From Lujinxingiaceae bacterium (GTDB lineage Bacteria; Myxococcota_A; Bradymonadia; Bradymonadales; Bradymonadaceae): a stretch of DNA of 40,080 nucleotides. The DNA lies in assembly GCA_013697635.1 (NCBI GenBank), contig JACCWM010000164.1, positions 1 through 40,080 of the forward strand, given 5' to 3'. Both the position numbers and the translations under genes were made by a program. The notes under the pieces are model-generated. The model saw only the letters and a list, made by a program, of their open reading frames with translations, searched no databases and was not told where the DNA came from. Of this stretch, positions 2,068 to 27,717 are shown in pieces; positions within the stretch are counted from its first letter, which is position 1, and every line of letters starts with the position of its first letter.

Positions 2068-3675
2068 ATGAAGATCGGCATTCCTCGCGAGATTGATGCG
2101 GCTGAGAAGCGCGTTGCCGCGATCCCTCAGACCGTGGCTCAATACACAAAGATGGGCTACGAAGTGTTGGTCGAGGCGGGCGCGGGCGCGGCTGCCAGGC
2201 TCAGCGATCAGGCCTTTGAGGCGGCCGGGGCGACGATCGTCGCTGATGCGGCCGAGCTCTGGGCGTCGGCGGACGTCATCCTCAAGGTGCGGCCGCCGGC
2301 TTTTGATGAGGCCAACGATCGGCACGAGGCGGATTTGCTGGGGGAGGGCAAGACGCTGATCAGCCTGATCTGGCCGGCTCAAAACCAAGAACTCGTCGGG
2401 CGGCTCGCAGAGCGCAAGGCCACAGTGCTGGCGCTCGATTGTATCCCGCGGATCTCGCGCGCGCAGGCGATGGACGTCTTGAGCTCGCAGGCCGGGATCT
2501 CGGGCTACCGGGCGGTGCTCGAGGCGGCGCATGCTTTTGGGCGCTGTTTTGGAGCGCAGTTTACGGCGGCGGGCAAGACCGAGCCGGCGCGGGTGTTGGT
2601 GATCGGCGCCGGTGTCGCGGGCCTTGCGGCGATCGCTGCGGCGCGCGAGCTGGGCGCGATCGTTTACGCATTTGATACGCGCGCCGCGGTCAAAGAAGAG
2701 ATCGAGACCCTGGGCGCGCGCGTGCTCGAGATGGATTTTGTCGAGTCCGGTGACGGCGGCGGCGGCTATGCCAAGGTGATGAGCCAGGAGTTCATCGACG
2801 CCGAGATGGCGCTCTTTTTGGAGCAGGCGCCGATCACGGACATCGTGATCACGACCGCGGCGATCCCGGGCAAGCCGGCGCCGCTGCTCGTCAAGCGCGA
2901 GATGGTCGAGGCGATGCGTGCCGGCTCGGTGGTCGTCGATCTGGCGGCCGAGACCGGCGGCAACTGCGAGCTGACCGTGGCCGGCGAGCTGGTCGATCAC
3001 CAGGGTGTGACGATCATCGGCTTTACGGATCTGACCAGCCGGCTACCCACCCACGCCAGCGAATTTTTTAGCCGCAACGTGGCGCATTTGGTCAATTTGT
3101 TGGGCTCGGCCGAAGAGTTCAAGATCGATCTCGAGGACGAGATCATCTACCAGATGATCGTGCTCGACGCCGGCAAATTGATGTGGCCACCGCCCAAGGT
3201 GCCCGCGCCGGCGGCGCCCGTGCTGCCCGTGGCGGCAATCGAGATGGCGAGCCCGAGCATGAGCGCGCCCACCGTCGGTGCCGACGATGAGCCTCGCAAG
3301 TCGCAGGTCGGCCTGTATATCGGCGGCGCGCTCGGACTGGCGCTGCTGTTGTGCATCGGGCTTTATGCGCCGACCGACTTCATCCAACACTTTTCGATCT
3401 TTGTTCTGGCCTGTTTTGTGGGCTGGAAGGTGATTTGGAACGTCAAGGCCTCGTTGCATACGCCTTTGATGAGCGTGACCAACGCGATCAGCGGCATCAT
3501 CATTTTGGGTGGCATCTTGCAGGTGACCACCGAGGGTACCAACCTGGTGGTGATGCTGGGGGCGGCGGCCACTCTGGTGGCGAGCATCAACGTATTTGGT
3601 GGCTTTTTGGTGACCCAACGCATGCTCAAGATGTTCCGCTCGGATAAGGGCGCGCGAGGTGGCAGCCATGCCTGA
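2068..3675 (+). CDS. pntA: NAD(P) transhydrogenase subunit alpha
   Basis: The 535-residue protein starts MKIGIPREI, the standard beginning of PntA and alanine dehydrogenase-like proteins. The NAD-binding loop [20 protein letters not shown] lies near residue 180. The C-terminal third holds several hydrophobic segments, including the [12 protein letters not shown] block that lines the proton path. Together with PntB it transfers hydride from NADH to NADP+ using the proton gradient, supplying NADPH. It is slightly longer than E. coli PntA (510 residues) because of an Ala/Pro-rich linker around residues 375-410. The stop overlaps the start of pntB by eight bases, so translation is probably coupled. 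Confidence 0.95.
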
Positions 3676-5065
3676 AAACTTTGATAATCTGCTGACAATC
3701 ATCTATCTCATCGCCGCCGTACTGTTCATCTCGAGCCTTGGCAGCCTCTCCAAAGAGGGCACGGCCCGGCGCGGCAATTTGATGGGCATGATCGGCATGG
3801 CGCTGGCGATTGGCGCGACCTTTCTGCACGACCCGAACACGGCGATCGCGATCTTGCTCGTTGCGCTGGGCCTGGGCGCGGTGCTGGGCGCGTTGGCGGC
3901 CTCGCGCGTGGCGATGACGATGATGCCCGAGCTCGTCGCGATCTTGCACAGCTTTGTGGGCCTTGCGGCCGTGCTGGTAGGCTTTGCCTCCTATCTTGGC
4001 AAGCCGCCCGAAGCCATCAATACGGTGTTCTTGATCGAGGTCTATGTCGCGGTGGCCGTCGGCGCGCTGACCTTTACCGGCTCGATCGTTGCCTGGGCGA
4101 AGCTCTCGGCCAAGATCAGCGGCGCGCCGCTGCTCTTGCCGGGTCGCCATGTGCTCAACGCGCTGCTCGTGCTCGCCATGGTCGGCTTTGGCGTCCTCTT
4201 TACGCTTGCGCCCGGGCCTGGCGAGGGCATGATGCCGCTGCTCGTCAACGCGCTGATCGCCTCGATCATCGGCGTGCATCTGGTCTTAGCGATCGGCGGC
4301 GCCGATATGCCCGTGGTCGTCTCGTTGCTCAACAGTTATTCGGGCTGGGCGGCAGCAGCGGCGGGCTTCATGCTCTCCAACGACCTGCTGATCGTGACCG
4401 GAGCGTTGGTCGGCAGCAGCGGGGCGATCTTGAGCTACATCATGTGTCGGGCGATGAATCGCTCGATCTGGAACGTGGTTTTTGCAGGCTTTGGCACCTC
4501 CGATTCCAAGGTGGTCGCCGTGGTCAGCGACGGCATCGAGCGCGAGGTGCGCACGGCAACGGCCGCCGAGGTCGCCGTCAACCTCAAGAAGGCGCGCCGC
4601 GTGATCATCGTGCCCGGCTATGGCATGGCCGTGGCCAAGGCCCAGCACAGCGTCAGCCAGATGACGCGCACGCTGCGCGCTCAGGGCGTGGAGGTGCACT
4701 TTGGCATCCACCCCGTGGCCGGTCGCATGCCCGGCCACATGAACGTCTTGCTCGCGGAGGCCGACATCCCCTACGAGGTCGTGCTCGAGATGGACGAGAT
4801 CAACCGAGACTTCCGCTCGACCGACGTCGTGCTCGTGATTGGCGCCAACGACATCGTCAACCCTGACGCGCTCACCGACCGCTCGAGCCCGATCTACGGC
4901 ATGCCCCAGCTCACCGTCTGGGACGCCGCTCAGGTTTACGTGCTCAAGCGAAGCCTCTCGTCTGGCTATGCGGGCGTAGGTAACTCGTTGTTTTTCAAGG
5001 AGAACACGTCCATGTTTTTTGGCGACGCCAATACGAGCATCGACGACGTGCTGAAGAATCTCTAG
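3668..5065 (+). CDS. pntB: NAD(P) transhydrogenase subunit beta
   Basis: The 465-residue integral membrane protein has a long N-terminal membrane region followed by the NADP-binding domain III. Its motifs are [42 protein letters not shown] and [12 protein letters not shown], as in E. coli PntB (462 residues). The ATG at 3668 has GAGG nine bases upstream and overlaps the pntA stop. A GTG at 3659 in the same frame is a weaker alternative. The TAG stop is built into the ribosome site of the next gene (TAGGAGCTACGATG), so pntA, pntB and the lipoprotein gene look like one operon. Confidence 0.95.
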
Positions 5066-5073
5066 GAGCTACG

Positions 5074-6090
5074 ATGCGAGCGTGCAGCGGCCGTTGGACT
5101 CAAGTTCTTGGGGTCATTGGGCTGGCGCTCGTCGTCTCGTGTGGCCCGGATCCGCAGCCGCTCGACGCTGGCAAGAGCGATCCTGACACCGGAGCGGACG
5201 CAGCCTGGGAAGTCGGCGAGGTGTTGGTCGATGTAGCGCCTGGCGAGGACGTGGCGCTCGAGGACGTCAGCCAGGACATCGCGCTCAATGACGTCGAGCC
5301 CGAGCCGGTGATTGCGTGTACGGCCGGCACGCGTGCCGGTGAGTGTTTGCATCTCTCCAGGTGCGATGGGGAGCGCGAGTCGATCGCGGGGCATTGCCCG
5401 GGACCGGCTGACATCCAGTGCTGCGTGGCGCGCGTGTCAACCGGTGAGCAGTGCGATGCCAACGCGTCCTATGAGCAGATGCCCCGGCCCAATGTGGATT
5501 TGAGGGAAGCGAGCGGCGTCGGAGGGTGTGCGCCGGGTATGGTACGCGTGGCGGGGTTTTGCGTCGATCGCTACGAGGCGGCGCTCGTCGAGGTGCTGGG
5601 CAACGGATCTTTGCGCTCCTGGTCGCCGTTTTTCAATCCTGGCACCCGACGCGTGCGCGCGGTCTCGATGGCGGGCGCCGTTGCGCAAGGCTACATCTCG
5701 GGCACCCAGGCCAGGGCGGCCTGCACGGAAGCTGGCAAGCGGCTTTGCACCGATGTCGAGTGGCTTCGGGCCTGCCAGGGACCGGCAACAACAACCTATC
5801 CTTACGGTGATGCGCGCCAGCCTGGCGTCTGCAACGACGCGCGCGCGGTTCATCCGGCCGTCGAGTACTTTGGGACCAGCGACGACTCGATCTGGTCGCG
5901 CCTTGGCAACGCCTGCATCAACCAACAAGACGACACCGTCACGTTGACCGGCGAAAAGGACGGCTGTGTCACGGCCGAGGGGCTCTTTGACATGATGGGT
6001 AACGTGCACGAGTGGACGGCCGATGCCAGCGGCACGTTTCGCGGCGGGTTCTATGTCGACACGGTGAGAAATGGTGCGGGGTGTCTGTAG
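5074..6090 (+). CDS. Lipoprotein with FGE-sulfatase (SUMF1-like) domain, prematurely stopped
   Basis: The N-terminus has a signal peptide with lipobox LVVSC, followed by an Asp/Val-rich linker to about residue 80 (EVLVDVAPGEDV-like). A small Cys-containing segment comes next. From about residue 150 there is a formylglycine-generating-enzyme-like fold: GMVRVAGFCVDRYE, CTEAGKRLCTDVEWLRAC, and MMGNVHEWTAD near the end. In this family the fold closes with a conserved ...GFRCC tail. Here a TAG at 6088-6090 interrupts the frame just before that tail, which is still intact downstream. An optimal AGGAG overlaps the pntB stop. The protein is probably an outer-membrane or periplasmic lipoprotein of unknown substrate. 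True catalytic FGE activity is doubtful. Confidence 0.8.
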   Translation: MRACSGRWTQVLGVIGLALVVSCGPDPQPLDAGKSDPDTGADAAWEVGEVLVDVAPGEDVALEDVSQDIALNDVEPEPVIACTAGTRAGECLHLSRCDGERESIAGHCPGPADIQCCVARVSTGEQCDANASYEQMPRPNVDLREASGVGGCAPGMVRVAGFCVDRYEAALVEVLGNGSLRSWSPFFNPGTRRVRAVSMAGAVAQGYISGTQARAACTEAGKRLCTDVEWLRACQGPATTTYPYGDARQPGVCNDARAVHPAVEYFGTSDDSIWSRLGNACINQQDDTVTLTGEKDGCVTAEGLFDMMGNVHEWTADASGTFRGGFYVDTVRNGAGCL

Positions 6091-6162
6091 CGAACCGGCG
6101 CCCACAGCGCGTCGCATTGGGACTATTCGACCGGATTTCGCTGCTGTGCCGACGCGCCTTAG
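6088..6162 (+). pseudogene. Stranded conserved C-terminus of the FGE-domain lipoprotein after in-frame TAG
   Basis: Reading on in the same frame past the TAG at 6088-6090 gives 23 codons, including RTGAHSASHWDY and STGFRCC, then another TAG at 6160-6162. The family normally ends in exactly this way (Y-R-T...H...DYS..GFRCC). The TAG sits where a tyrosine (TAC or TAT) is expected. The frame is therefore one base change from complete. Possible explanations are a recent nonsense mutation, a sequencing error or amber readthrough. General TAG recoding is unlikely because pntB, the aldehyde dehydrogenase and other genes here end normally at TAG. Confidence 0.8.
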
Positions 6163-6177
6163 TGCACCATCTATTTG

Positions 6178-7185
6178 CTATTTGCTGAGTAGATCGAGGT
6201 AGATGCCGGCGGCGTCGTCGTGCTTGCCGCTGGCCTGGAGCACGGCAGCGCGCACGATGCGCGCGTAGTCGAGTTGTGCAGGCGCGGCGTCGAGCAGGCG
6301 ACGGCCAAGCTCCTCGACGGCCGTCATGGCCAGCGCGTGGCGGCCGGCGTAGATCAGCGCCGCGATGCGATACCAGTGCAAGAAGGCGATATCGGCGTTC
6401 TCTGAAGCGGCGCTCTCGGCCAGGGTAGCGGCCGCCGGATAGCGGCCCAGCAGCAGGGCCTCGGCCGCCTCGACGATCATCTCGCGGCGGCGCAGCACGT
6501 CGAGCATGGCCTCGTCATTGGTGAGCGTTCGCGCGGCGCGCAGACGCTCGCGTTGCACCTTCCAGTCTTCCAGATCGAGCAGGGGCGCGAGCTGGTTTAC
6601 TTGAGGCACCATCAGGCCTTCGTACTCGTCGAGCAGGCGGCGCACCAGCCGTCGTCGCAGCTGTGCGAGCTCGGGCTGGGCGAATTGCATGCGCAAGAGC
6701 GTGCGGTACAGACCCCAGGCGCCGCCGCCGCCGGCGGTGTAGGCTCGGCCCTCGTCGAGCTCGTCGCCGAGCGCCTTGAGCGCGAGGCGCTGGCCCTCGG
6801 GCATCTGCCAGATCTGATCGCCGGCGCGCGTCGCGGCCAGGCGGCGCTCGGCGCGCACCTGCTCGAGGTCGGCGGCCTCTGCGGCCAGGCGCATGTAGAG
6901 ATCGTAGTAGGCCGTAGCCGAGCTGTAGTCGTTTTGCCAAAAGTAGGTGCGCGCCAGGTTGCGATAAGCGTCAGGCGCGTGGGGCTCGGCCTGGATCGCC
7001 TCGATGAACCCGTCTCTTGCCTCGTCGTAGCGGCTCTGGTTGTAGGCATCATTGGCGCGTTTGAGTGCGCTCGTAGCCGACGGTCCCGAAGCCAGTGCGG
7101 CCGTGGCAAAGACGCTGAGCAGACTGGCGATGGTGATGGTGGCCAGCAAAAATGCGCGCGCGCGCCCTGCGATCGGAGCTCTCAT
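6178..7185 (-). CDS. Secreted TPR-repeat protein
   Basis: The 335-residue protein has an N-terminal signal peptide (AFLLATITIASLLSVFATAALASG). Tetratricopeptide-type helices follow: ANDAYNQSRYDEARDGFIEAIQ, then APDAYRNLARTYFWQNDYSSATAYYDLYM, and further degenerate helices to the end (GKHDDAAGIYLDLLSK). TPR arrays bind other proteins, and in this setting it probably works in the periplasm. Its ATG overlaps the TGA of the upstream PEGA gene in an ATGA, so the two are almost certainly co-translated and may act as an envelope pair. No catalytic motif is visible. The gene converges on the FGE lipoprotein with about 15 bases between the ends. Confidence 0.75.
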   Translation of the reverse strand: MRAPIAGRARAFLLATITIASLLSVFATAALASGPSATSALKRANDAYNQSRYDEARDGFIEAIQAEPHAPDAYRNLARTYFWQNDYSSATAYYDLYMRLAAEAADLEQVRAERRLAATRAGDQIWQMPEGQRLALKALGDELDEGRAYTAGGGGAWGLYRTLLRMQFAQPELAQLRRRLVRRLLDEYEGLMVPQVNQLAPLLDLEDWKVQRERLRAARTLTNDEAMLDVLRRREMIVEAAEALLLGRYPAAATLAESAASENADIAFLHWYRIAALIYAGRHALAMTAVEELGRRLLDAAPAQLDYARIVRAAVLQASGKHDDAAGIYLDLLSK

Positions 7186-13293: not shown

Positions 13294-18087
<4,794 letters not shown>

Positions 18088-18097
18088 TGCGCGTCGT

Positions 18098-18301
18098 GGC
18101 TGGAGACTGAGGCCTGGAGGCTTTGGTTGGGAGAGCGCACACTCTCCCAGAGTTGAACAAATTGCTGATGTCGATGTTGATGTGCTGATGTTGAACGTGG
18201 ACTTTTTTGACTGCAAGCCGCTGGACCTTCGCTAAATGTTGCTTTGATGATTTGCACGGGCTTTAACGCTGTCCAAAGCCTCCAGACCTCAATTTCCAGC
18301 C
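18098..18301. repeat. 29-bp imperfect inverted repeat enclosing 146 bp, between synthase and reductase genes
   Basis: The left arm 18098-18126 and right arm 18273-18301 are reverse complements at 26 of 29 positions. The longest uninterrupted match is CTGGAGGCTTTGG. The enclosed DNA is AT-richer than the genes around it. It holds a perfect 8-bp hairpin at 18128-18149 and short direct repeats (TGCTGATGT twice, GTTGAAC twice). A weak promoter-like TTGACT (18207-18212) with CTAAAT (18232-18237) lies inside, at 19-base spacing. It could be a small non-autonomous element or a large regulatory RNA stem. No target-site duplication is evident. Confidence 0.6.
18128..18149 (+). terminator. Perfect 8-bp hairpin after the megasynthase gene
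   Basis: TGGGAGAG (18128-18135) and CTCTCCCA (18142-18149) form a perfect stem with loop CGCACA, 40 bases after the synthase stop. There is no downstream T tract, so it may attenuate rather than terminate. Confidence 0.4.
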
Positions 18302-18332
18302 CTCCTCGAATCTGGATCCAAAAGAGTACGCC

Positions 18333-19073
18333 ATGTCTGCATTTGTAACCGGTGGTTCGCGTGGCATTGGTCGCGCGATCGTTCTCAAGCTCGCTCAACA
18401 AGGGCGCGACGTGGCGTTTAGCTACGTGAACAATGCCGACGCTGCCCGAGAAACCGAGCGCCTCGCTGCAGATCTTGCGCCGGGGCGTCGCGTGCAAGGT
18501 TACGCGCTTGATGTGTGTGATTCAGCCGGGGTGGAGCGCGTCGTCGATCAGGTGATCGAGGATTATGAAAACGTCGACACGGTGGTAAACAATGCCGCGA
18601 TCTTGCGAAACAACGCCGCGGCGCTGATGAGCGATGAGGATTGGAACCAGGTGATCGCGACGAATTTGACCGGACCCTTTTTCGTCACGCGTCAGTTTCT
18701 GATGCATTTTCTGAGCAATCGCAGCGGACGCATCATCAACATCTCCTCGATCGCCCAAGACGGCGCCAGCGGGCAGGTGAACTATGCAGCGAGCAAGGCC
18801 GGGCTGGTCGGCATGACCAAGACTCTGGCGCGTGAGTATGGCCCCAAGGGGATCACGGCCAACGTCGTCGTCTTGGGGCTGGTGCCCACGGACATGAGCC
18901 GCGAGCATGGCGACGAGAAGCTCGAGGCGTTTTGGAAGCAGTGGTGTCCGCGAAAGCGCCAGGGAACCCCCGAGGAGGTTGCCTCACTCGTGCATTTTTT
19001 GAGCAGCGACGCGGCCGATTTCATCAACGGCGAAGTCATTCATATCAGCGGTGGTTTGACCTATGTGCCTTGA
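18333..19073 (+). CDS. 3-oxoacyl-ACP reductase, FabG-type SDR
   Basis: The 246-residue short-chain dehydrogenase has the NADPH motif VTGGSRGIG at the N-terminus, structural NNAA, and the catalytic Ser in NISSIAQDG with YAASK (standard Y-x3-K). GGLTYVP lies at the C-terminus. The length is standard for FabG (244 residues in E. coli). It would reduce the beta-keto group made by the KS-AT protein while the chain sits on the free ACP. It starts the second part of the cluster: the next gene follows 27 bases later. AAGAG precedes the ATG. Confidence 0.85.
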   Translation: MSAFVTGGSRGIGRAIVLKLAQQGRDVAFSYVNNADAARETERLAADLAPGRRVQGYALDVCDSAGVERVVDQVIEDYENVDTVVNNAAILRNNAAALMSDEDWNQVIATNLTGPFFVTRQFLMHFLSNRSGRIINISSIAQDGASGQVNYAASKAGLVGMTKTLAREYGPKGITANVVVLGLVPTDMSREHGDEKLEAFWKQWCPRKRQGTPEEVASLVHFLSSDAADFINGEVIHISGGLTYVP

Positions 19074-19100
19074 GCGGCGCCACCCAGAGGAGTGTTTGCG

Positions 19101-19931
19101 GTGATCTCGATCGATATGAGCGACAAAACAGTGCTGGTGACGGGTGGCACGCGTGGCATTGGTCTGGCCACGGGGCTGGAGTTTGGCGCGGCCGGCGCGC
19201 GTGTGGTGTTGACCTACAAGTGGGGCTCGGCCAGCGAAGAGGCGATCGTCGAGGCCTTCGCAGCGCGCGGCGGCCGCGCGCCCACCTTGCTTGAGGCCGA
19301 TGTCTCCAACGAGGACGATACGCGCGCGCTGCTCGACGCCATTGCCAGAACGCACGACGGCATCGATGTTTTCGTGAGCAATGTGGCCTTTGCCCAGCGA
19401 ACACCCACGCTGGAGAGCTACAAGAAGCGCTCGTTTTTCAAGACTCTGGAGTACAGTGCCTGGCCGCTCGTGCATTATACGGCGGCGATCAAAGAGCGCT
19501 TCGGGCGCTATCCTGGCCATGTCATCGGCGTCTCCAGCGATGGTGGCGAGCGCCACTATCCGGCCTACGATTTTGTGGCCGCTTCGAAGGCGGTCTTGGA
19601 GAGCTTCGCGCGCTACCTTGCGGTGCACATCAAGGAGGAGGGCGGGCGCGTCAACGTCGTGCGCTTTGGCATGGTCAAGACCGACTCTTTCGAACAGATG
19701 TTTGGCCCTGATTTTGCCGAATTCTTGAGGCGCGAGGGCTTTGGCGACGACGACCTGTTGCAACCGCATGATTGCGGCAAGGCGATTCTTGCACTATGCA
19801 GTGGACTGCTCGACGCCATGACCGGCGAGGTCATTACCGTCGATCGAGGCATGGCGTTTTTGGACAATATGATGATGCGCTACCACCGCCAAAGCGAGGC
19901 TTCGCCGGCCGGTGGCAACCGAACGGAGTGA
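19101..19931 (+). CDS. Enoyl-ACP reductase-like SDR (Y-x6-K type)
   Basis: The 276-residue SDR has the cofactor loop VTGGTRGIG, then DVFVSNVAF in place of the usual NNAG. The catalytic region is YDFVAASKAVLESFARYLAVHI. Here Tyr and Lys are six residues apart (Y-x6-K), as in enoyl reductases FabI, FabL and InhA, and not the Y-x3-K of ketoreductases. The order resembles FabL ([22 protein letters not shown]). It therefore probably reduces the enoyl intermediate after the FabZ-like dehydratase. The start is taken as GTG 19101 with GAGGA upstream. GTG 19092 and ATG 19116 are alternatives. The TGA is two bases before the ACP start. Confidence 0.75.
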   Translation: MISIDMSDKTVLVTGGTRGIGLATGLEFGAAGARVVLTYKWGSASEEAIVEAFAARGGRAPTLLEADVSNEDDTRALLDAIARTHDGIDVFVSNVAFAQRTPTLESYKKRSFFKTLEYSAWPLVHYTAAIKERFGRYPGHVIGVSSDGGERHYPAYDFVAASKAVLESFARYLAVHIKEEGGRVNVVRFGMVKTDSFEQMFGPDFAEFLRREGFGDDDLLQPHDCGKAILALCSGLLDAMTGEVITVDRGMAFLDNMMMRYHRQSEASPAGGNRTE

Positions 19932-19933
19932 CA

Positions 19934-20179
19934 ATGAGCAAAGATCAAATCATCGAAGTCATCACCCGCAATCTTTTGGAGAACATCGACGACCTCGACC
20001 AGAGCGCGATCAACCCTGAGAGCTCGATGCGCGACTACGGCGCCAACAGCCTGGACATCATCGAGGTGGTCTCCTGCTCGATGCGTGAGCTCAAGATCAA
20101 GGTGCCGCGCTCGGAGTTGGCTGAGGTGCAGAACATCAGTCAGCTCGCGGACAAATTTCTCGAGTACGTCAACGCGTGA
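19934..20179 (+). CDS. Free-standing acyl carrier protein
   Basis: The 81-residue acidic four-helix protein carries DYGANSLDIIEVV, in which Ser39 is the phosphopantetheine site. It starts two bases after the preceding SDR, so the two are translationally linked. This ACP probably carries the chain between the KS-AT protein, both reductases, the dehydratase and the oxoamine synthase, which explains why the megasynthase has no carrier after its AT. No phosphopantetheinyl transferase gene is in the window. Confidence 0.9.
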   Translation: MSKDQIIEVITRNLLENIDDLDQSAINPESSMRDYGANSLDIIEVVSCSMRELKIKVPRSELAEVQNISQLADKFLEYVNA

Positions 20180-20213
20180 GCAGCTTCGCGCCGCCTTTGC
20201 CCCAAGAAGTTCG

Positions 20214-21482
20214 ATGATGAATGATCGTGATATACTGAAATACAGTCTGGCGGACTTCGGTCACAACGACAACGACGACGTGCTCGCTCCGCCTCAGGAT
20301 TTTCTGACGTGGATCAAAGACCCGCGCGTGGCCATGGCCTTTCAGTTCTTCGAGCAGCCGATGCTGGCCGCGCCGACGCCTCGCACCTCGCTTCGCACCA
20401 ACCTCGATGGTGTGACGCGCCAGATGATCAACTTGACCTCGTACAACTACCTGGGTCTGTCGACCCATCCTGAGGTGGTCGCGGCGGCCAAGGCGGCGCT
20501 CGATACCTACGGCGTGGGCGCCGCGGGCGCGGCGCTGCTCTCGGGCACCTTCGATCAGCACGAGCTGTTCGCCGAGGAGCTCGCCCGCTTCAAGCAGAAG
20601 GATGCCTGTGTGCTGTTCTCGAGCGGCCTGGGCGGCAATATGGGCGCGATCCAGGCGATCTTACAACGCGGTGACGTGCTCGTCATCGACGACAAGTGCC
20701 ACAAGAGTCTGATCGACGGCGCAAAACTCGCGGGCGCAAAGCTTGTCAGTTTTGCGCACAACGATGCCAACTCACTCGATGAGACGCTGGCCCGCCACAA
20801 AGGCAAGCGTGTCCTGGTGGCGATCGAAGGCGTCTATTCGATGGACGGAGATCTGGCTGATTTGCCGGCGGTCGTCGAGGTCTGTGAGAGCCATGGTGTG
20901 CCGATCTATCTGGATGAGGCCCACTCGACGCTGCTCTTTGGTGAGAACGGCCGTGGAATTGGTGAGCACTTTGGCCTCGAGGACAAGATCGGCGTGAGTT
21001 TTGGCACGCTGAGCAAGTCCTTTGGTGGCGTCGGCGGCTTTGTCTGCGCCAACGAGAACCTGGTTCGCTACATGAAGTGCTACGCCTCGCCGTTTCAGTT
21101 CTCCTGTGCGTTGCCACCGGCGATCGTCGCGGCGATGCGCAAGTCGCTCGAGGTGGCCACGCGCGATTCGAGCCTTCGCGATGCGATGTGGGAGAACGTG
21201 CACTATTTTCGCAAGAACCTCGAGTCGCTCAACCTCGATCTGGGCGAGTCGGCCTCGCAGGTCATCCCGATCATCATCGGCTCATCGGGCGAGCATCTGA
21301 TCATGATGGCCATGGCCGCACAGCAACGCGGGCTGTTCTTGCAGCCGATTGATTTTCCCGCCGTCGAGGCCCATGCACGCCGCTTTCGCATCTCGGTTTC
21401 CTCGCAGCTCACCAAGCAAGACATCGACGAGGCTTGCAATATCATCGAAGACGTCATCGCGCGACCGCTGGGAAGGGTGTGA
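20214..21482 (+). CDS. PLP-dependent alpha-oxoamine synthase (serine palmitoyltransferase / BioF family)
   Basis: The 422-residue protein has the family landmarks in order: NLTSYNYLGLSTHP, GAALLSGT, DDKCHKSLIDGAKLAG (substrate His), YLDEAHST (Asp and His contacting PLP) and GTLSKSFGG with PLP-lysine 268. Members condense an amino acid with an acyl thioester and lose CO2, giving an alpha-amino ketone (serine palmitoyltransferase, BioF, KBL, CqsA). An ACP gene directly upstream suggests an acyl-ACP substrate and chain release by amino-acid condensation. The amino acid (serine, alanine, glycine or other) cannot be read safely. A start at 20217 is also possible. Confidence 0.88.
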   Translation: MMNDRDILKYSLADFGHNDNDDVLAPPQDFLTWIKDPRVAMAFQFFEQPMLAAPTPRTSLRTNLDGVTRQMINLTSYNYLGLSTHPEVVAAAKAALDTYGVGAAGAALLSGTFDQHELFAEELARFKQKDACVLFSSGLGGNMGAIQAILQRGDVLVIDDKCHKSLIDGAKLAGAKLVSFAHNDANSLDETLARHKGKRVLVAIEGVYSMDGDLADLPAVVEVCESHGVPIYLDEAHSTLLFGENGRGIGEHFGLEDKIGVSFGTLSKSFGGVGGFVCANENLVRYMKCYASPFQFSCALPPAIVAAMRKSLEVATRDSSLRDAMWENVHYFRKNLESLNLDLGESASQVIPIIIGSSGEHLIMMAMAAQQRGLFLQPIDFPAVEAHARRFRISVSSQLTKQDIDEACNIIEDVIARPLGRV

Positions 21483-23703: not shown

Positions 23704-23920
23704 TTTTACGCACTCATCGAGTTCAACATTTTCCATTGGTCCACTGGTCGGCCAAATCGATCTCACTATGCGTTGCCAACCCTCAACAGGCAACCGTTTC
23801 GAATCGATTCGGGCATTACGTCGACGCTTGCCAGCCACCCAATCCTCTGCTTAGGTAGGGCCAATGATTTCGAGATAATTGGCCAATCTGACCCGACCCT
23901 GGCTGCAAGAGGAGCGTCCC

Positions 23921-26506
23921 ATGAGTTCGATCACCGTGGATGACATCGTCACAATCGACCAGAAGAACCCCGATGACTGGAATGCCTACGAGAAGATGAA
24001 GAGCATCACCAAAAGCGAGCCGGAGGGAACTCTGAGTCAGCTTCTGTGGCAGGCATTCAAAGGGGATCGACTCAACCTGGCAAGGTATCGCGGTGCCTGG
24101 CACGTGCTAGCCGAGCCCGCAAACGCCTACGACGGCGATGCCTTTTTGAAGCTTACCCACGCCATCGCCATCTGGGACGCCAAGCAGAGCTATCCAAGCT
24201 GGTCGGACTCCGACCTTCCTGGTTTCTCGAATTATCTCGACGCCTTGCTCAAGGCCAAGAGCGGCGACGACGCGTTTTTCCAGCGCCTCGCGGCCAACTG
24301 GACCACGCTGCCCTCTCCGCTGCGTGAGTCATTGGGTGCAAAGCTCGTCGGTCTGGGTTTTCTGGAAGCGAGCGTGTTGCCCGATGCATTGATCGAGACC
24401 CTCGCTGCTCGCTTTGTGCAGACCGAATACCCCTTCTGGGGGGAGGGCTTGCCCTGCTGGTCCGACGAGATCTGGCAGGCCGCCCTCTTGTCCGCGGCCC
24501 TCTCGCCGGCCGTAAGCACGATCAAGAGCGACAAGATCTTTGCCCAACTCGTCGAGGTTGCCGCACCGGCCGGGGTCGCGATCTTGGCGTGCAAGATGGC
24601 GATGACGACCGATAAACGTCTTCCGGCCATCGAAACCATCGGCCAACGCGGCGAGTCGGTGATCCCCGCTCTTGAGCTAGCGCTCGGCGAACTGGAGGAT
24701 TTTTCCGACAGCCGAGAGCATTACGCAGCGTTTCACCTCGTGTTGGGCTACTGCCGCGCCTGCCAGCTCGCAAACAAGACGCCCTCGGCTCACCTCGACG
24801 CAAAGATTGCCGGCTTTGCCAGCGCCTTTCAACCCGGCTGGAGCGGAGGCAATTTTCGTGAATGGCAAGCGCACATCCAATCGCTCGTCGCCCTCGTCCC
24901 CAAAGAGCGGCTGGGGCCGCTGATAGCCGCCGGTCCGAAGCTGCCCTGGCTGCTCATCGGCGCAGCACCTACCGACGAGGTCTGCCAGCGCACGGTCGAT
25001 ACACTGGTCACGATCACGAGCGATCCCTTCTACGGCTTCGACGTCCACCGCGACATCGGCCTGCACGCGCTTGGCACGGCCGTGGTGCCGGCCCTTTGCG
25101 CGGCGTTGGATCGTGGCGACGGGGGTTCACAGCGCGGCGCGATGATCGGTGTTTTGGGCGCGACGGCCGACGATCGCGCGGCGGCCACCCTCGTCGCCCT
25201 GCTCGACGAGAAGACCAAGGGCCTGCGCGAGGGGGCCAAGCATGCCCTGAGCGCCCTGTCGGTTCAGGCGGTCTGTGCTCATCTGGGCTCGGCGCTGAAC
25301 TCGCGCAAGAAGGACACGCGGCTGGCCGCAGCCGAGATCCTGCGCGCCATGGCGCCCGCGCGCGAGGCCTTCGAGCTCGCACAAACTCAGCTCGACAGCG
25401 AGAAACTCGCCGACATCCAGGTGATCTTGCAAGCGGTGCAACGGCCGGCCGATGAAATCAACGATGAAACGGCCGACGAGGGCATCACGTCCGAGCTTCG
25501 TGCCGAGATCTTCGTGGCCCTGCGCGACTCCAATGGCAAGGACTGGCCCAAATACGTCGCGCATGGCGAGGGAATCGTCGAGATATTCATCGCCACGCTG
25601 GCCGAGCGTTTTCAAGGCGAAATCGCCTACTTCAATGATGCCATCCAGTACCACCTCGCCGAGATGCTTGGCCACTTCGCCGATTCACCCACGGCCCGGC
25701 GTGCGCTGACGGACATACTCGGGGCCTTCCGCTCGGCTGCTGTGCAAGGCAACGTTGACATCTTCATCAAGCACGTGCCGAGCTTTCCCGCCGACCTCGC
25801 CGAGGCCGTGATCGCGGGGCGTATCCAACGGCCTGCCAACTTTGGCAAGCCCCCCTACTACGGCACGCCCCCCTACTACAGCAGCGCATTCACGGACCTA
25901 CATGCACTGTGCTGGCTCTTCCTCATGTATCCGGAGTTGGCCTGGGAGGCGGCCCTGAGCGGCCTCACGCACAGTGAAGAGAGCGTGCGAAACGTGTGCA
26001 TGGACTTCGTCCTACTCAGCAAAGAGAGAATCGACGTCAACACCCACGTGCTGCCCCTGCTCAAATCGCGCACCAAGGACATGCGCATCTCTGGCGCACG
26101 GTTTCTGGGTTCACTAGCATCGGCGGAGCACCTTCCCCTGCGCGAAGAGGCTTTGAAGCGTGAGAAAGTGCGTGAGGTGCGCGACTTGTTGCAGGACGCG
26201 ATCGTGCGCGTTCACGCCCAGGGCCTCGACGTCGCCGCCTTCGCCCAAGACCCTGACGGTGACGCACGCCTCGATGCCCGCCTCGCAGGTCTTGTGGCAC
26301 GCGAGCTGCCCACGGCCGTGGAAACGGCCTGGACCGGCTTAGGCGCGCTGCACTGGAAAAGCGGCGCCGCGCTCTCAGACGGCGCGCGACGCTGGTTTGT
26401 CAGCGAGGCCCTCAACGAGTCAGCCAACGAGCAGGGCGTCAAAGTGCGCGAAGTTCGCGCGCGCCTCGTCGACCAGGACTGCCACGCCTTGTGCGACAAC
26501 AATTGA
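23921..26506 (+). CDS. HEAT-repeat N-terminal part of a DUF4132 (MolR-like) protein
   Basis: The 861-residue protein begins MSSITVDDIVTIDQKN after AGGAG. It is all-helical, with HEAT-like pairs in the middle ([65 protein letters not shown]) and again near 2.1 kb into the gene (ESVRNVCMDFVLLSK). It stops at TGA 26504-26506, although the following sequence in a shifted frame is the expected continuation of the family. DUF4132 proteins related to E. coli MolR/YehF have a HEAT region of this kind followed by the DUF4132 domain. Hence this is half of a larger protein, either naturally split or frameshifted. Confidence 0.65.
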   Translation: MSSITVDDIVTIDQKNPDDWNAYEKMKSITKSEPEGTLSQLLWQAFKGDRLNLARYRGAWHVLAEPANAYDGDAFLKLTHAIAIWDAKQSYPSWSDSDLPGFSNYLDALLKAKSGDDAFFQRLAANWTTLPSPLRESLGAKLVGLGFLEASVLPDALIETLAARFVQTEYPFWGEGLPCWSDEIWQAALLSAALSPAVSTIKSDKIFAQLVEVAAPAGVAILACKMAMTTDKRLPAIETIGQRGESVIPALELALGELEDFSDSREHYAAFHLVLGYCRACQLANKTPSAHLDAKIAGFASAFQPGWSGGNFREWQAHIQSLVALVPKERLGPLIAAGPKLPWLLIGAAPTDEVCQRTVDTLVTITSDPFYGFDVHRDIGLHALGTAVVPALCAALDRGDGGSQRGAMIGVLGATADDRAAATLVALLDEKTKGLREGAKHALSALSVQAVCAHLGSALNSRKKDTRLAAAEILRAMAPAREAFELAQTQLDSEKLADIQVILQAVQRPADEINDETADEGITSELRAEIFVALRDSNGKDWPKYVAHGEGIVEIFIATLAERFQGEIAYFNDAIQYHLAEMLGHFADSPTARRALTDILGAFRSAAVQGNVDIFIKHVPSFPADLAEAVIAGRIQRPANFGKPPYYGTPPYYSSAFTDLHALCWLFLMYPELAWEAALSGLTHSEESVRNVCMDFVLLSKERIDVNTHVLPLLKSRTKDMRISGARFLGSLASAEHLPLREEALKREKVREVRDLLQDAIVRVHAQGLDVAAFAQDPDGDARLDARLAGLVARELPTAVETAWTGLGALHWKSGAALSDGARRWFVSEALNESANEQGVKVREVRARLVDQDCHALCDNN

Positions 26507-27717
26507 TCCGGGTCGACGGCAAGGGCGAGCTCGGCTGGGCGCTCTACATGCAAGCGATCCTCGCAGGGCCTGCTCAAATCGAGGCCTTGGGTCGGCGTCT
26601 CGAGGAGTTTGCCTCCTCGCAAAGCTATGGCTGGAGCGACTACGCCATCGACACGCTCGTGCGCACCCAATCCGACCAGGCCGCGCGCATCATGGACGAC
26701 TGGACCCACCGCACGCGTCGCGACGCCTTGCGCCACCGCGCGCGCGACGGCGTGCGCGCCATCGCCCAGGCCCGACAGATCACGGTCGAAGAGCTCATCG
26801 AGGCCTCCCTTGGCAACCTCGGCTTCGATCGCTCTGGGGCGCGCGTCTTCGACTACGGCCCGCGCACGATCGTCGTGCAGCTGGGCGCCGACGGCGAACT
26901 CAGCTTTTGCGACGCCGATGGCGCAGCGCTCAAGGCCATGCCTGCGGCCCGAAAAGACGACGACGCCGCGCGCGTCAAAGAGGCCCGTGAGAGCGTCAAG
27001 CAGCTCAAGACCGACCTCAAGCGCATTCGCCGCACTCAGATTCGCCGCCTCGAAGAGGCCATGATCGCTGCGCGTCGCTGGCTGCCTTCGGTGTGGCTTG
27101 AGCGCTTTGCCGACAATCCCGTGATGCGAACGCTGGCCTCGGGGCTGGTCTGGAGCATCTGCGACGCGCAAAGCGGCGAGCTGTTGCGCTGCTTTCAGCT
27201 CGACGACGCGGCCGAGCCCTTCGGCGCCCAGCTTGAGCCCGTGAGCTTTGACGACGCCACACAGCGCATCGGCCTGCCCCATCCCATCGAGCTTGGCGAG
27301 GCGCGCACCATCTGGCTCGAGCTTTTGGCCGATGGCGAGCAGGTCCAAGCGTTTCGACAGCTCGAGCGACCGATCTTCGATAAGGGCCGCATTGAAAATC
27401 TCGACGCCTACCTCGTCAAGCTCGATCAGGTCGAACCGGCGACCTTCCTCGGCCGGCTCAACCGCCTGGGCTACGAGCTTGGCCCCCGCGAGGACGCCGG
27501 CATGATCAACCAGAGCACGCGCAAGGTCGGCGACTGGGACATCACCGTCGCGCATACGGGCCTTGCGCCCGAGGCCCTGAGCTGGTCTGGAGATGGCATC
27601 GAGGTCCGCAGCATTTCAGCCGACCACGAGGGCAAGAACATCACGCTGGACCAACTGCCGAGCGCGCTCTACAGCGAGGTCTTCTTCGACATCGACGCGC
27701 TGATGCAAACGGTCTAG
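26491..27717 (+). CDS. DUF4132-domain C-terminal part (MolR-like), overlapping and out of frame with the HEAT part
   Basis: The 408-residue frame from GTG 26491 contains the DUF4132 signature: FDYGPRTIVVQL, ALKAMPAARKDDD, a coiled helix VKQLKTDLKRIRRTQIRRLE, RRWLPSVWLERF, LVWSI and LPHPIEL. The gene overlaps the HEAT frame by 16 bases. Relative to that frame it corresponds to a -1 shift around 26501-26503, where N-N-(stop) would become N-L-I-R. The upstream AGGA is about 12 bases from the GTG, so coupled re-initiation is possible but not ideal. No slippery heptamer is seen. The function is unknown: the family is linked to molybdate regulation only by name. Confidence 0.65.
   Translation: MRQQLIRVDGKGELGWALYMQAILAGPAQIEALGRRLEEFASSQSYGWSDYAIDTLVRTQSDQAARIMDDWTHRTRRDALRHRARDGVRAIAQARQITVEELIEASLGNLGFDRSGARVFDYGPRTIVVQLGADGELSFCDADGAALKAMPAARKDDDAARVKEARESVKQLKTDLKRIRRTQIRRLEEAMIAARRWLPSVWLERFADNPVMRTLASGLVWSICDAQSGELLRCFQLDDAAEPFGAQLEPVSFDDATQRIGLPHPIELGEARTIWLELLADGEQVQAFRQLERPIFDKGRIENLDAYLVKLDQVEPATFLGRLNRLGYELGPREDAGMINQSTRKVGDWDITVAHTGLAPEALSWSGDGIEVRSISADHEGKNITLDQLPSALYSEVFFDIDALMQTV

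Follow-up and report, generated by a model that had tools for sequence, protein, structure and literature searches.

A private in-frame TAG separates an FGE-fold lipoprotein gene of a Lujinxingiaceae bacterium from its conserved C-terminal tail and probably marks a recent nonsense change

The 40,080-base contig JACCWM010000164.1 of a Lujinxingiaceae bacterium (hereafter the window, that is, the whole stretch of DNA that was analysed) carries at positions 5074-6162 a gene for a putative lipoprotein with an FGE-type fold, interrupted by an in-frame TAG at 6088-6090. The probable cause is a single recent nonsense change that inactivated a dispensable, non-catalytic member of its family. One substitution in the sequenced lineage or strain would have turned an invariant tyrosine codon into TAG; translation would stop there, yielding a 338-residue product without the last strands and two invariant cysteines, and the truncated surface lipoprotein would misfold and then be lost, leaving a young pseudogene or a nonsense polymorphism. 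We infer that the base is real, the product non-functional and the change recent. A young null allele is thus the most likely explanation in our ranking; a base error comes second, and functional readthrough is unlikely.

Retranslation of 5074-6162 (forward strand) reproduces the coordinates and the protein sequence given in the initial annotation. The frame opens with an ATG at 5074, upstream of which an AGGAG can be seen by eye, and encodes 338 residues (5074-6087) before the TAG at residue 339, which closes the predicted ORF at 6090. As the annotation had it, this TAG cuts off the GFRCC tail: another 23 codons follow in frame (6091-6159; RTGAHSASHWDYSTGFRCCADAP), containing HWDYSTGFRCC with Cys357, Cys358 and the final strands of the domain, and lead to a second TAG (6160-6162) that is the usual end of the family. 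The codon model scores the tail at -2.3 bits, which puts it 73rd among 160 downstream extensions, so that codon usage alone is insufficient; we judge the tail genuine because 55 other loci align with it at their C-terminal ends, which also bears out the earlier description of it as intact. Read by eye, the N-terminus has a hydrophobic stretch up to a lipobox-like LVVSC and then an Asp/Glu-rich linker, which fits a lipoprotein; a Cys-rich segment and the FGE-sulfatase domain follow this acidic linker.

Upstream, the pntB gene (3659-5065) has its stop 8 bases before the start of the FGE-fold gene, and downstream a gene for a TPR protein converges on it, with its end at 6178. We rejected the pntAB linkage as a clue to function: of 10 relatives, 8 have a pntB match, and in all 8 pntB and the FGE-fold gene lie on separate contigs, which makes the neighbourhood uninformative on this point. 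Elsewhere in the window, 13294-21482 holds a possible biosynthetic cluster, in which a 1597-aa protein with AMP-binding, carrier, ketosynthase and acyltransferase domains is followed by two short-chain dehydrogenases and an aminotransferase, and 23879-27717 encodes a HEAT-repeat protein and then an overlapping DUF4132 protein.

For the comparison with relatives we used 56 loci: the window gene, L004-L007, L040-L043 and L118-L164 (phylum search). L118-L144 are the best-matching loci that this search returned, and L145-L164 comprise four chosen for a flagged stop and 16 from the following ranks; L003 was omitted, its contig being, to judge by length, identical to that of L041, and by the same measure L004 and L162 represent one contig. 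The genus is represented in the searched set by the window genome only. At the position of the stop, all 55 other loci (54 distinct) have the tyrosine that the initial annotation expected, encoded by TAC in 50 and TAT in five, and either codon is one substitution away from TAG. The suggestion that homologues might also end at this point turned out to be false: all 55 reading frames continue through GFRCC, or through GMRCC as a variant of it, and the premature TAG is private to the window genome. Among the matches listed, the flagged stop of L043, L131, L142 and L145-L148 falls directly after the GFRCC block and is a normal end. With every examined relative intact at this codon, a gene copy recently broken in the ordinary way, or a base error, is likelier than special decoding of the stop. 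One relative, L007, carries an in-frame low-complexity insertion of ~110 residues within its FGE-like domain (~3199-3528).

The Pfam profile PF03781 matches residues 211-318 of the window protein (E=9e-12, 45.6 bits against a cut-off of 23.3). A structural model of residues 137-362, computed from an alignment of 52 rows with Tyr in place of the stop, displays a complete FGE fold (mean pLDDT 91.3, pTM 0.90); for the whole read-through protein, an 8-row alignment had yielded a low-confidence model (mean pLDDT 51.3), which was set aside. Compared with FGE-fold chains, the model reaches VIA-align Z scores of 15-18, which places it in the FGE-sulfatase family (PF03781) at the level of the fold, in agreement with the sequence profiles. 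The alignments with CalU17 (Z 17.9) and S. coelicolor FGE (15.8) all reach the C-terminus, and SUMF1 (1y1e, Z 15.3) and its paralogue SUMF2 (1y4j, Z 15.7) likewise share the whole-domain fold to the C-terminus; the retroelement variable proteins 2y3c and 5vf4 score 16.9 and 14.7, and the alignments with 2y3c and with PorK extend to the C-terminus as well.

Unlike SUMF1 and SUMF2, the window family has ten invariant cysteines of its own (152, 163, 217, 225, 234, 253, 298, 337, 357 and 358, in 52 of 52 aligned rows) and lacks the copper-binding pair. The human FGE pair would fall at about 329-334 of the window protein; the aligned positions 329, 333 and 334 are D/E, N and G/M in the 52 rows, and no cysteine lies between residues 299 and 336. 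In PMC4505483, the active-site pair of human FGE is given as Cys336 and Cys341, and the structural disulfides as Cys365-Cys218 and Cys346-Cys235. Since both catalytic cysteines are missing from the 52 aligned rows, we take this to be a non-catalytic version of the FGE fold, like that described for PorK. The label 'FGE-type' that the gene had received therefore holds for the fold, on the evidence of PF03781 and the model, but not for the cysteine pair of the enzyme. PorK/GldK of type IX secretion offers a parallel, being an outer-membrane lipoprotein with an FGE fold devoid of the two catalytic cysteines (PMC12421860), and PorK (9p6h) matches our model with Z 14.4; PorK differs in having insertion domains and the partners PorN and PorM, neither of which was seen near the window gene.

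Cys217 and Cys234 of the window protein align with a pair of human FGE cysteines spaced 17 residues from each other, which fits their correspondence to Cys218 and Cys235. The GFRC cysteine, Cys357, would be the equivalent of human Cys365, as the motif and a structural alignment reaching residue 370 suggest. Two strands of the model, at residues 353-355 and 357-360, lie within the lost tail. A protein ending at residue 338 loses the disulfide partner Cys357, Cys358 and the last strands, and on grounds of fold and conservation the truncated product would be expected not to fold.

How long the gene has been without constraint can be gauged from columns that are at least 95% conserved in the other 52 rows (L148, L004 and L007 were left out). 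The window gene deviates at two of 53 such columns in the body, P204A and L311V, and at none of 12 in the tail, V at 311 being found in two other rows as well; 23 of those 52 rows deviate nowhere in these columns, body and tail included, and the most divergent row does so at 7 of 54 in the body. These columns reveal neither relaxed selection nor extra lesions of the kind expected of a pseudogene, and their few deviations indicate that the gene was under selection until very recently, or is so now. With both deviations counted, a rough Poisson bound over 152.7 nonsynonymous sites in conserved columns puts the neutral change since the loss of constraint at no more than ~0.04 per site. The end branch of the window gene in the tree measures 0.40, the median over 53 rows being 0.32; no starred set contains the window gene, so the tree does not separate vertical descent from transfer. 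As 95 of its 362 codons are one base away from a stop, lone nonsense hits come easily.

An unworn gene is what one would see after a young change, but equally with an assembly error at this base or with a mixed population, and we therefore speak of a nonsense change, the pseudogene being what we infer from it. It is possible, if rather unlikely, that the TAG is a consensus base error or the base of a minor strain and that the cell's gene is intact. A single substitution would account for everything in a gene otherwise unworn, and the assembly is a draft of 213 contigs, of which the window is one whole contig. Nothing specific speaks against this. Other long genes of the window (for instance pntA, pntB and the 1597-aa ligase-PKS) are open with near-full-length Pfam domain matches, and errors are therefore not conspicuous in the contig; the completeness of 99.45% says little about single bases.

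Two further explanations turn on how the genome decodes TAG. An Rfam search detected 45 tRNA genes, for which ARAGORN read 45 anticodons. The suppressor tRNA(CUA) that the initial annotation proposed to look for is not among these 45; tRNA-Ile(GAT) and tRNA-Ala(TGC) are missing too, which means that the set is incomplete and an undetected tRNA gene possible. The PylS C-terminal family has no match in the genome, and the PylD profile has a single weak one (20.4 bits against a cut-off of 150). In a 440 kb sample (the window plus 20 stretches, genes predicted with a simple codon-model gene finder), 280 genes end in TGA (167), TAG (67) or TAA (46), and coding-like extensions, non-overlapping and at least 15 codons long, follow one of 23 TAG, five of 51 TGA and none of 10 TAA stops. 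Given the 67 genes that end in TAG and no coding-like excess after it, TAG is an ordinary stop here. Genome-wide suppression or recoding of TAG, by a suppressor tRNA or pyrrolysine, can draw on the incomplete tRNA set and the PylD-like match, but the unmatched PylS, the genes closing with TAG, the similarity of TAG extensions to the others and the fact that the window gene itself closes with a TAG exactly at the family end leave it barely conceivable.

Isolated in-frame stops are described as widespread in bacterial genes and mostly short-lived by Belinky et al. 2021 (PMC7918605). The window gene resembles those cases in its lone recent stop within an intact surrounding frame free of decay, and differs in that theirs are common to at least two genomes while the window stop is found in one. 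Functional amber readthrough, with an amino acid inserted at the TAG at some rate and little full-length lipoprotein made, would agree with the intact in-frame tail, the lack of decay and the suggestion of the same authors, who report in-frame stops in bacterial genes under purifying selection, that readthrough of them acts as short-term down-regulation. The authors also assume a polymorphism time scale and no functional recoding for the vast majority of cases; no relative of 55 shares the stop, which speaks against evolutionary persistence and gives a conserved programmed event no support; and, with neither a CUA tRNA detected nor an excess of coding-like sequence after TAG, we hold readthrough to be very improbable. 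Marginally harder still to credit is a real TAG tolerated through frequent readthrough, as a just-arisen, strain-level down-regulation that leaves small amounts of full-length lipoprotein, a surface protein that its family does not require. Of the three readings first proposed for this gene, a recent nonsense change and a base error are thus live, whereas readthrough finds no support, given the lack of a detected CUA tRNA or PylS, the normal use of TAG and the privacy of the stop.

We also considered, and rejected, a diversity-generating retroelement that rewrote a gene of the FGE/lectin fold at its 3' end. The fold is common to retroelement variable proteins (2y3c, 5vf4) and the genome has one RVT_1 reverse transcriptase, but the latter lies on another contig, the tail is conserved rather than variable, and no second, template copy of the gene's 3' end was found in the genome (best other match 19 bases, E 0.027), so that we give this origin next to no credence. 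The reverse transcriptase, the only RVT_1 member in the genome, is a 447-aa frame (L180, G000:C182:8196-8825; 146 bits).

The recent nonsense change that we favour would have struck a gene of wide but uneven occurrence. At E<=1e-30, at least one match is present in 124 of 377 genomes of the phylum, the window genome counted, many of them multi-copy; the named loci among the relatives include some from Minicystis rosea and from Polyangiaceae and Myxococcales MAGs. The window's taxonomic family contributes 20 other genomes, all without a match at this threshold, and the best reading of this distribution is that the lipoprotein may be dispensable within the family. Among the literature matches listed for FGE-sulfatase, Myxococcota and lipoproteins, nothing concerned this lipoprotein family, for which, by analogy, one might guess at a surface binding or scaffold role. 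The family is large, widespread in the phylum and probably non-catalytic, its FGE-fold lipoproteins sharing ten invariant cysteines, and automatic callers will list the window gene as a truncated, 338-aa member of it. Should readthrough prove true after all, the gene would offer a further natural test of bacterial tolerance to young in-frame stops.
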